A stretch of 64,000 bases of DNA from Patescibacteria group bacterium (lineage in GTDB: Bacteria; Patescibacteriota; Patescibacteriia; Patescibacteriales; UBA12465), in NCBI GenBank assembly GCA_022710685.1, contig JAKLGM010000001.1, forward strand, positions 62,001 through 126,000, in the 5' to 3' direction. Shown in pieces: positions 13,624 through 16,309 of the stretch. Position numbers and translations under genes: made by a program. Positions within the stretch are counted from its first letter, which is position 1. Each line of letters starts with the position of its first letter. The notes under the pieces were generated by a model. That model was not told where the DNA came from, made no database searches, and saw nothing but the letters and a program-made list of their open reading frames with translations.

Positions 13624-14782
13624 ATTTTAACTGGAGAATAACTATTTCGCGCCAGACTTTCTGTCCTTCCCGGCCATAGAGCCAAGTCTGGCGATTAGTG
13701 TTACCGCTAGAGACAATCTTCCAATCCGGATACAGGGGGTTGAGATAGAAGAATTTACTTTGGCCTCTTTCGCGCCCGATAAAAACCGGCCAAATCATTA
13801 CTAATTTGCCATTTTGTTTGATGATTCGGGCTAAAGCCTTGAGGGACTGAGTGTATAGCTTTTCCAACTCTGAAACGGTTTTGCTTATTTCGTGCTGGCC
13901 ACGTTGCGGGCCTAAGTATGGCTCGGTGACAATGGCGGAAAAAGTTTTTGGCTTGTAGGGTTTATTTATTTCAGTGGCAGAAATTATTTTGGTTTCAGTT
14001 TTAACATTCTTAATGGAAAAGTTTTGTTTTATCCATTCCAAATTTTCCTTAGTATCACTAATGGCTTTAGCCGAGATATCAGTGCCCACTAATTTTTGAT
14101 ATCCCATTAACATCGCTTCGGACAAGATGGTGCCGGAGCCGCAGAAAGGGTCAAGCAGTGGTTCGGTTTTTTCTCCTTGGGCCAAGTTAATCATGATTTG
14201 CGCCAACTTAGGTGGCAGCATGCCGGAGAGATCGTCGCGACCGGGTCGGCCATAGTCGCGGAAAGATAGTTCCTTGAAGGGCTGGACGGCCAAAGTTTGA
14301 GCCAGGAATAGTTTGCCGGGTTCATCGCGCAAAAAAACTATTTCCATCCCTTTGTCCAAGAGATAGTTCTGTTCCACGATAACGCTAGAGAGAATTTTTT
14401 CTTTACCCATTACCCAGCGGCAAGAATAATCTGCGTCGCGCAAAGCAGTCTTGATGGTCATCCCCAGCTTTTTAGTATCGATTGGAGCGTTGGCGTAATT
14501 GGAGAAACCATAATGGAATTTACCGTTGACATTAGGCGCGGCCTCAAGTGCAAAATCTAAACAGGCTTGAGGGATTTCATGGTTTTTCATTGGGGCGATA
14601 ACTTCACCAATTTTGATAGTGCCGCCTAATTGTTTGATCGTCTTTTTGGCGTCAATTTTGCCTTGAACTTCTAACAAAAAAATGCCGTTTTGGCCCGTTT
14701 CCCCTTGACCTTCAGGAAAAACAGCCATAATTTCGGCTTTTGATAGTGACGGATGGTTGCCTAGAGCAAAAAAGTATTTCAT
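13622..14782 (-). CDS. THUMP/Trm11-type RNA N2-guanosine methyltransferase
   Basis: A 386-residue protein in the Trm11/TrmG10 group. The N-terminal ~170 residues fit a THUMP-like RNA-binding region. The C-terminal Rossmann methyltransferase has the SAM site LLDPFCGSGT, the acidic VGTDIS ribose loop and TEPYLGP in the place of the DPPY catalytic motif. The family dimethylates G10 of tRNA in archaea and eukaryotes, and bacterial relatives act on tRNA or 23S rRNA. Target here is inferred as tRNA. It is a single-gene unit, divergent from the rpsF leader. Confidence 0.75.
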   Translation of the reverse strand: MKYFFALGNHPSLSKAEIMAVFPEGQGETGQNGIFLLEVQGKIDAKKTIKQLGGTIKIGEVIAPMKNHEIPQACLDFALEAAPNVNGKFHYGFSNYANAPIDTKKLGMTIKTALRDADYSCRWVMGKEKILSSVIVEQNYLLDKGMEIVFLRDEPGKLFLAQTLAVQPFKELSFRDYGRPGRDDLSGMLPPKLAQIMINLAQGEKTEPLLDPFCGSGTILSEAMLMGYQKLVGTDISAKAISDTKENLEWIKQNFSIKNVKTETKIISATEINKPYKPKTFSAIVTEPYLGPQRGQHEISKTVSELEKLYTQSLKALARIIKQNGKLVMIWPVFIGRERGQSKFFYLNPLYPDWKIVSSGNTNRQTWLYGREGQKVWREIVILQLK

Positions 14783-14848
14783 GCTTCTACTGTATACTTT
14801 TTGGGGATTTTTGGCAAATCATTGACAAAATGCCTATTTTCTTAGGGC

Positions 14849-14877
14849 TTGCTTTTTTTATTTTAGTCTGTTAAATT
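14849..14877 (+). promoter_or_regulatory. candidate promoter of rpsF leader RNA
   Basis: TTGCTT (14849-14854), a 17-nt spacer, TAAATT (14872-14877). Weak but well spaced. It would start RNA near 14884, just before the structured leader. A stronger TTGACA at 14822 has no -10 at a fitting distance. Confidence 0.4.
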
Positions 14878-14880
14878 AGA

Positions 14881-14999
14881 GGGACAATTAAGACCTTTCC
14901 CACACTCCCTGCTTTCAGGGAGTAATCTCGGCCAAAGAGCCGCGATTAAAGGTATTTCTCTTTAGCCTCGCTATTTTGGAATACCGAGGTTTTATTTTT
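14881..14999 (+). ncRNA. riboswitch-like attenuator or small RNA ahead of rpsF
   Basis: P1 pairs 14893-14898 with 14948-14953 (ACCTTT/AAAGGT). Inside are P2 (14904-14911/14916-14923, perfect 8 bp, CTTT loop) and P3 (14924-14932/14939-14947, one mismatch). J1/2 is CCCAC and the other two joints are 0 nt, a tight three-way junction. An intrinsic terminator follows (CCTCG 14966-14970 with CGAGG 14985-14989 plus an inner TATT/AATA helix, then TTTTATTTTT). GGTATTTC (14951-14958) can instead pair with GGAATACC (14978-14985), destroying both P1 and the terminator. It could be the S6:S18 autoregulatory leader, an unknown riboswitch, or a free small RNA. Confidence 0.6.
14966..14999 (+). terminator. 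intrinsic terminator in rpsF leader
   Basis: Stem CCTCG/CGAGG extended by TATT/AATA across a C-C mismatch, TTGG loop, and then a run of ten T's broken by one A. It lies 78 nt before the rpsF start codon. Confidence 0.75.
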
Positions 15000-15063
15000 G
15001 GAAAAAATTATTATTGGGCAAGGAAAATTTTATCGGCGCTTTAAGCTCCCTTGAACTCCAACT

Positions 15064-15072
15064 TGCTATAAT
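15064..15072 (+). promoter_or_regulatory. extended -10 promoter at rpsF start
   Basis: TGC-TATAAT with the -10 at 15067-15072; the ATG is at 15077. Initiation 6-7 nt past the -10 would place the RNA start on the start codon, a leaderless mRNA. It lies downstream of the leader terminator, so rpsF may have both an attenuated and an unattenuated transcript. Confidence 0.5.
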
Positions 15073-15076
15073 CACT

Positions 15077-15583
15077 ATGTCAAAAACCAAACCGTCAGGA
15101 TTAGCCCATTACGAAATCCTGTTCGTCGTGTCTAACCGCTTCACCGAGGATGAAGCTAAAACCTCTATTGCCAAAGTAGAAAAATTAATCACTGAGGGCG
15201 AAGGCAAAATTACCCTTAATGAATATTGGGGCAAGAAACGCTTAGCTTATCCGATTAAGCATGAAGCCTATGGCTACTATCAGCTGTTTGAATTTGATCT
15301 AGAAAGGAAAGACTTGGCTAGATTGGATGAAAAATTGAGATTGGATCATGAAATCTTGCGCTTTATCATCGTTACCAAGAAATTGAAGAGCGATGAACAA
15401 TTAGCCAAGGAACAGAAGATCAAAGAAAAGATCGGCAAAAAACAAGCCGAACAAGAAAAGAAGAGCCAAGAAGAAAAAACCAAGAAAGAAGCTAAGCCGA
15501 AGAAAGACGCCAAACCTAAGGCCGATATCGAAAGCTTAGATGAAAAATTGGAAGGCATCTTGAATGCCGATGATTTGTTATAA
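15077..15583 (+). CDS. rpsF: 30S ribosomal protein S6
   Basis: A 168-residue S6. The first ~100 residues are the S6 ferredoxin-like fold (HYEILFVVS, KITLNEYWGKKRLAYPIKHEAYGYY, LDEKLRLDHEILRFIIV). A ~65-residue tail rich in K/E/Q follows and is longer than in most bacteria. It binds S18 on the 30S platform. The frame is open 21 codons upstream, but the ATG at 15077 gives the normal N-terminus. It is first in the standard rpsF-ssb-rpsR order, followed by efp. Confidence 0.96.
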   Translation: MSKTKPSGLAHYEILFVVSNRFTEDEAKTSIAKVEKLITEGEGKITLNEYWGKKRLAYPIKHEAYGYYQLFEFDLERKDLARLDEKLRLDHEILRFIIVTKKLKSDEQLAKEQKIKEKIGKKQAEQEKKSQEEKTKKEAKPKKDAKPKADIESLDEKLEGILNADDLL

Positions 15584-15618: not shown

Positions 15619-16044
15619 ATGAGCTTAAACAAAGTAATGTTGATCGGTAATGTGACCAAGGATCCGGAAATACGCACTACTCCGACTGGTCAGAATGTCG
15701 CTTCCTTCTCAGTCGCTACTAATATGAATTGGACCGACCAGAGCGGTCAGAAGCAGTCTCGCGCCGAATTCCATAATATCGTAGCTTGGCGCAAATTAGC
15801 CGATATTTGCGGGCAGTATTTGCACAAAGGCACCAAGGTTTATTTGGAGGGCCGTTTGCAGACCCGCGATTGGGTGGCTCAAGATGGCACCAAAAAATAT
15901 CGCACCGAAGTTATTGCTGAAACCATGCAAATGTTGAATCGCCCGGGCGAAACTCAGGCCACTCCGTCTCAGCCTGATAGTTTTGAAGACGCTGTCGCGG
16001 CTGAAGGCGAAGAAGAAATAAAAATTGAGAACATTCCTTTTTAG
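15619..16044 (+). CDS. ssb: single-stranded DNA-binding protein
   Basis: 141 residues: an OB-fold of ~105 residues (LNKVMLIGNVTKDPEIRTTPTGQ, FHNIVAWRKLADICGQYLHKGTKVYLEGRL), then a short Q/P/E-rich linker and the acidic tip ending ENIPF. The tip resembles the usual DDIPF that recruits replication and repair partners. The ATG at 15619 is chosen over an upstream TTG. It lies between rpsF and rpsR as in most bacteria. Confidence 0.97.
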   Translation: MSLNKVMLIGNVTKDPEIRTTPTGQNVASFSVATNMNWTDQSGQKQSRAEFHNIVAWRKLADICGQYLHKGTKVYLEGRLQTRDWVAQDGTKKYRTEVIAETMQMLNRPGETQATPSQPDSFEDAVAAEGEEEIKIENIPF

Positions 16045-16075: not shown

Positions 16076-16309
16076 ATGAACAACCATCACAATAATAATG
16101 TAGTCAAGAAGGCCAAAGAGTGCTACTTCTGCATTAACAACTTAGAGCCGGATTACAAGGACACTAAATCTTTGCGCCGCTTCATTAACTTCTACCAGAA
16201 GATTATCGGCGCTGGCCGCACCGGCACTTGTGTCTGGCACCAGAGAAAATTAACTTTGGCTATTAAGCGTTCCCGCAAAATGGCTTTGTTGGCTTTCACT
16301 CATAAATAA
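16076..16309 (+). CDS. rpsR: 30S ribosomal protein S18
   Basis: A 77-residue S18 with KECYFCINN at the N-side (a Cys pair seen in some S18), then YKDTKSLRRFINFYQKI and the basic HQRKLTLAIKRSRKMALL core. It assembles as the S6:S18 heterodimer on the small subunit. It starts 31 nt after ssb. Confidence 0.97.
   Translation: MNNHHNNNVVKKAKECYFCINNLEPDYKDTKSLRRFINFYQKIIGAGRTGTCVWHQRKLTLAIKRSRKMALLAFTHK

Follow-up and report, generated by a model that had tools for sequence, protein, structure and literature searches.

A conserved leader RNA before the rpsF-ssb-rpsR operon of Falkowbacteria and related Patescibacteria, predicted to act by attenuation and probably autoregulatory

The window analysed here, a stretch of 64,000 nucleotides from a 0.89-Mb genome whose family has close records named Candidatus Falkowbacteria (Patescibacteria group), raises the question of what kind of RNA is encoded at 14881-14999, ahead of the ribosomal protein gene rpsF, and to what it might respond. 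A sequence-only reading had proposed a riboswitch-like attenuator with mutually exclusive helices and had offered three identities for it: the S6:S18 leader in a CPR version, a ligand-binding RNA of a new kind, or a small RNA with its end at 14999. All coordinates below are those of the window, and the promoter, the leader parts, rpsF, ssb, and rpsR lie on the + strand.

Fold and conservation of the leader

The leader strand folds at -42.4 kcal/mol, compared with -25.1 ± 3.3 kcal/mol for dinucleotide shuffles (z = -5.3; 0 of 200 shuffles). P1 joins ACCUUU (14893-14898) to AAAGGU (14948-14953) in six pairs in the window, as a base-by-base check confirmed. Its 5′ strand is followed by the joining strand J1/2 (CCCAC, 14899-14903), with the conserved core Y-C-C-R at 14899-14902, by the P2 hairpin (14904-14923; arms 14904-14911/14916-14923, eight pairs in the window), and by the P3 hairpin (14924-14947; arms 14924-14932/14939-14947), in which four pairs stand on either side of a single U-C mismatch. 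J2/3 and J3/1 are zero nucleotides long in the window leader, bearing out the proposed three-way junction with two zero-length joints. The antiterminator 5′ strand GGUAUUUC (14951-14958) overlaps the P1 3′ strand and is conserved as GGUAUUCUC with compensated variants. Its 3′ strand GGAAUACC (14978-14985) lies inside the intrinsic terminator hairpin CCUCGCUAUU-UUGG-AAUACCGAGG (14966-14989; five and four pairs flanking a single C-C mismatch), in nearly all homologues immediately 5′ of the terminator's G-rich end, and the hairpin is followed by the U-run TTTTATTTTT (14990-14999), a feature present in homologues too. The antiterminator has eight pairs in the window, one of them G-U. Because positions 14951-14953 are common to the antiterminator and P1, and the antiterminator 3′ strand is common to the terminator, the antiterminator state and the P1/terminator state are mutually exclusive. 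The sequence-only reading had claimed as much, and every arm that it had placed in P1, P2, P3, the terminator, and the antiterminator was recovered base by base.

Conservation was measured on alignment A4, in which 89 order-wide sequences were fitted to the model structure, so that it leans towards that structure. In A4, 88.2% of the P1-P2-P3-terminator cells are standard pairs and 622 cells show two-sided changes, which occur in 27 of 29 pairs; the covariation score is 0.596, against 0.199 for shuffled columns and at most 0.149 for slid structures. A MAFFT alignment that was not structure-fitted (A1) shows the same helices. P1 cells are 90% paired, with two-sided changes in 6 of 8 pairs, and covariation supports its 3′ strand; such changes are found in 9 of 9 pairs of helix 2 (P2), the loop of which is unconserved, in 7 of 7 pairs of helix 3 (P3), and in 5 of 5 pairs of helix 4 (the terminator), which is 92% paired. 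The antiterminator, absent from every model and scored separately, is conserved as GGUAUUC.../...GAAUAYC with compensatory changes, abuts the terminator 3′ arm, and scores at least 7 in 76% of the sequences as opposed to 6.4% of shuffled tails. Its compensated variants include GGUAUUACA/UGUAAUACU, GGUAUUGCA/UGUAAUACU, and GGCAUUCUC/GAGAAUGCU, as well as GGUAUGCUC/GAGUAUAUC and GGUGUUUC/GGGACGCC. The covariation in P1-P3 and the antiterminator that had been set beforehand as support for the fold was thus found. Conserved unpaired positions are few (about four), and the loops are free in length and sequence. In the J1/2 core YCCR, the CC is present in 89 of 89 sequences, Y is C in 60 and U in 29, and R holds in 88 of 89, giving the triplets CCA (80), CCG (8), and CCU (1). 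On this comparative evidence, a chance origin of the leader fold is out of the question.

Operon setting and distribution

A sigma-70 type promoter is predicted at 14849-14877, with a -35 box TTGCTT (14849-14854), a 17-nt spacer, an extended -10 TG, and a -10 box TAAATT (14872-14877), which would place the transcription start at about 14884, shortly 5′ of P1. Promoter-like matches, mostly TTGCAA/TTGCTT with TAAAGT/TAAATT, were found in 83 of 89 homologues, with a spacing of 17 in 76, and end approximately 11-24 nt 5′ of the aligned leader. Upstream of the leader lies a divergent methyltransferase-like gene. Downstream are rpsF, for ribosomal protein S6 (15077-15583, ATG at 15077; Pfam PF01250, 1.2e-24), ssb (15619-16044; PF00436), rpsR, for ribosomal protein S18 (16076-16309; PF01084), in which an AIKR.R segment is kept, and then efp. 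The gene order S6-SSB-S18 holds in all 69 family loci, comprising 30 genome loci and 39 named records, two sets that overlap. Separately, S6 of the Falkowbacteria group carries a long charged C-terminal tail beyond its 90-residue domain (window 15374-15583; family loci L293-L331) that closes with a short, almost invariant motif (LKDLDEKLEGILNAKDLI as consensus, SLDEKLEGILNADDLL in the window). The tail has the look of a conserved docking or regulatory element.

The covariance search of CPR genomes upstream of rpsF, proposed as the check on the fold, was passed. In the GTDB family, whose records are named Candidatus Falkowbacteria, rpsF was found in 39 of 39 genomes with the element upstream in each, and a direct search of the order's complete rpsF upstream regions found the element in 102 of 106 (E below 0.05). 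A 103rd region (L151) scores weakly and has a visible compensated P1 (ACUUUU/AAAAGU), and the element was not found before rpsF in the remaining three (L123, L154, L160), whose upstream regions appear unlike the rest by eye. When covariance model R1 was searched across whole genomes of the order, blind to gene position, the element was found in 89 of 111 genomes, almost always as a single copy. Of the 51 whole-genome matches examined, 49 share the strand of S6 and sit 39-174 nt 5′ of its domain. Another is cut off at a contig end, and the last, the second match in genome G004, falls within coding sequence, in an open-reading frame resembling an RseP-type site-2 protease, and was rejected as a false positive. 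Of 85 rpsF upstream regions from other orders of the same class, three (L212, L213, L216) have matches at E below 0.05, and L239 has one at E 0.058. A phylum-wide search of 381 genomes, in which few candidates were scored per genome, gave no further credible match; the only phylum-level match outside the order, in G705, was a false positive inside an open-reading frame resembling an MreB/ParM-type ATPase, this name and the RseP-type one being readings of the translations without a family search. Because so few candidates are scored per genome, absence of the element outside the class is only likely. With blastn, the leader gave convincing matches only in two genomes of the same genus. Sequence comparison establishes the helices, the mutual exclusion of antiterminator and terminator, and the exclusive association with rpsF.

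Departures from the common pattern were also seen. In L141 and L145, which belong to one family, P1-P2-P3 and UCCA are kept and the platform differs, with terminator ends reading CAAGAGAUUUUUUU and no clear GGUAUUC antiterminator, which suggests that the expression platform was replaced. In L209 and L231, from another family in another order of the class, a different conserved leader lies about 20-90 nt before rpsF, with the pattern GUUCAAUCCC..CUUGAA..GACCACUUCAAG..GGCAGAC..GGUC; it may be a further r-leader, one that works at the start codon.

Switching and the candidate ligand

With its conserved U-run terminator and mutually exclusive, covarying antiterminator, the element is, on comparative grounds, a transcription attenuator. 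When the window transcript was folded as it grows, P1 had formed by 14954 and was displaced by the antiterminator by 14986, before completion of the terminator at 14989. The ON fold of the window is predicted at -42.2 kcal/mol and the OFF fold at -35.5 kcal/mol, and ON is lower in energy than OFF in 62 of 78 homologues, with a mean difference of -2.0; in the OFF fold, a helix adjoins the U-run in 77 of 78. As the ON state is the lower in energy, the default would be read-through, and anything that holds P1 would cause termination, which in this modelling is the logic of an autorepressed ribosomal protein operon. In the predicted ON fold, the 5′ end of the leader (14889-14897) also pairs with the terminator 3′ arm (14986-14994), a weak signal found in 68 of 78 homologues (87%) compared with 68% for shuffled 5′ ends. 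Counting against the favoured reading, when the junction is folded alone, most of P1 is missing from the minimum-energy structure of 22 of 78 homologues. Leader-peptide attenuation was rejected, since there is no ATG within 14881-14999.

We favour, at a probability of roughly three in four, a cis-acting, transcription-attenuating autoregulatory leader whose junction is bound by S6:S18, with stabilisation of P1 and termination as the outcome. RNA polymerase would start just 5′ of P1, making the 5′ leader of the rpsF-ssb-rpsR operon, and the nascent RNA would first form the three-way junction, in which YCCR is the only strand joining P1, P2, and P3. Unless P1 is held, GGUAUUC would quit P1 and pair with GAAUACC before the terminator is complete, giving read-through into rpsF. 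With more S6:S18 heterodimer than 16S rRNA present, the heterodimer would bind the junction and lock P1, the terminator would form, and the operon would be turned off. The ligand in this scheme would be S6:S18, its binding favouring P1 and thus acting as an OFF switch. As is found for autoregulatory ribosomal protein leaders, a conserved structured RNA here lies 5′ of the operon that encodes its presumed ligand. Alignment with solved S18 chains indicates that Falkowbacteria S18 keeps the AIKRxR segment, for which we assume the E. coli numbering and whose E. coli residues touch C719/C720 (PMC4647458). In E. coli, S6:S18 represses rpsF, the interface of S18 with the RNA includes residues K60, R61, and R63, regulation is lost in mutants of K60 and of R63, and the leader CC facing S18 stands for C719-C720 of 16S rRNA (PMC4647458; PMC10931766).

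The invariant CC(A/G) strand of the present leader plausibly copies this S18-contacted C719-C720 strand, and the matching of P1, P2, and P3 to h23, h23a, and h22 in circularly permuted order is suggestive. At the S18-contacted site, 15 of the 18 genomes of the order that were read have ACACCA-AA(U/A)GCGAAGGC in their 16S rRNA (GAACACCAAAUGCGAAGGC or closely similar). Mimicry is disfavoured by the window's own genus, which has CUA in 16S and yet keeps CCA in the leader. The S18-contacted CC of h23/h23a was seen as CU in three family genomes, G000 (L171, L176), G009, and G016 (L179, L183). Conservation of the CC could owe something to ON-state pairing with the G-run of the terminator; as the whole cause, this pairing was rejected, being weakly above shuffles and leaving the A/G unexplained. 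Mimicry of 16S by the antiterminator 3′ strand was also considered. The window has GGAAUACCG there, which we take to equal the E. coli 16S sequence, but most of the family has GAAUACUUGGG; because of this difference, and because the strand is fixed by pairing, such mimicry was rejected as general.

Other ligands were weighed against the same evidence. A metabolite- or ion-sensing riboswitch would tune S6/S18 (or SSB) synthesis through a small molecule that stabilises the junction, and so P1, and might represent a riboswitch class peculiar to reduced-genome CPR bacteria, a new small-molecule aptamer tying ribosomal protein synthesis to a metabolite. The three-way junction, whose joining strand is invariant, and the textbook expression platform would suit it, but the roughly four conserved unpaired positions and variable loops offer little for a small-molecule pocket, and even at E 10 there is no match to any riboswitch covariance model of Rfam 15. 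As a rule, metabolite riboswitches control several genes, whereas rpsF is the sole gene behind this element in every genome. Both forms of this explanation are unlikely. We regard as quite unlikely a ribosomal protein leader with a ligand other than the heterodimer, such as S6 or S18 alone, S15, or another factor: the operon does encode both S6 and S18, and such leaders often have a product of their own operon as ligand, but S15 lies outside the operon seen here, and in known cases the acting form is the S6:S18 heterodimer (PMC4647458).

A constitutive leader whose terminated product of about 115 nt acts in trans as a small RNA is very improbable. It would account for the strong terminator after a stable fold, but a plain small RNA would not need an antiterminator conserved with compensatory changes, the element is never seen away from rpsF, and YCCR aside, there is no conserved unpaired stretch for target binding. 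What survives of the small RNA suggested to end at 14999 is a short terminated RNA expected as a by-product, not a separate gene. Among the identities first offered, the CPR S6:S18 leader is by far the best supported, because no gene but rpsF was ever found behind the element and the operon order is rpsF-ssb-rpsR; this holds for function and not for homology to RF02893, which gave no match.

Relation to known leaders

Most likely, the leader is a known kind of regulator, a ribosomal protein autoregulatory leader, in a new shape missing from public RNA catalogues. A scan of the window leader gave no Rfam family at gathering scores, and at E 10 over 14780-15120 nothing credible was found, the four weak matches being far below cut-offs. 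RF02893 (RpsF_leader) is reportedly the S6:S18 leader of E. coli and relatives, said to go back to Matelska 2013, Fu 2014, and Babina 2015. At its gathering cut-off of 37 bits, it was found in 0 of 109 order genomes, it did not match 14780-15120 even at E 10, and the E. coli leader, as positive control, scored 110 bits. These scans ruled out membership of a known Rfam family; the RF02893 model is narrow, matching 1 of 14 control genomes (E. coli), and excludes membership of RF02893, not of the wider S6:S18 class. A literature search on regulatory RNAs of CPR/Patescibacteria and on rpsF leaders found no report of such an RNA among the papers listed.

The element is an order-wide, nearly universal leader on an essential operon. 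If S6:S18 binds it, it would be at least the third distinct S6:S18 leader, after the classic and Chlorobi ones, and control would act at transcription rather than translation, perhaps by copying the 16S junction in circularly permuted form. If true, this would represent convergent evolution of ribosomal protein autoregulation and rRNA mimicry by topology, and minimal-genome CPR bacteria would retain fine control over ribosome assembly.

The comparison with the Rfam S6:S18 leader model that had been called for showed a different fold for the E. coli rpsF leader. Like RF02893, the present leader stands directly before rpsF in an operon with rpsR, has S6:S18 as its proposed ligand, and has a conserved unpaired CC beside a helix and a hairpin. 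The E. coli leader, however, represses translation and consists of a single long, imperfect hairpin whose CCG sits in a 3′ internal loop (PMC4647458), whereas the window leader is a three-way junction that carries its CC in the joining strand on the 5′ side and has an antiterminator/terminator. YCCR does separate stem P1 from hairpin P2, though it does so on the 5′ side of the junction, and absence of the classic CCG-in-3′-bulge arrangement counts against the favoured reading. Eckert et al. (2020, PMC7247131) proposed a second S6:S18 leader, unrelated to the classic one, in Chlorobi. Compared by description and Rfam scan, that r-leader is likewise lineage-restricted, placed before rpsF-ssb-rpsR, and distinct from the widespread S6:S18 motif, but it belongs to another lineage and is stated not to resemble rRNA (PMC7247131). 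The h22/h23/h23a junction of 16S rRNA, the S6:S18 site, is likewise built of three helices, with a CC(A/G) strand linking h23 to h23a and essentially no other linker; the strand order would be circularly permuted between the two, and the 16S junction differs in its helix sequences and in the CU of the window genus. The L10(L12)4 leader of B. subtilis offers a parallel for ribosomal protein autoregulation by transcription attenuation, with another protein and another RNA (PMC4538822).
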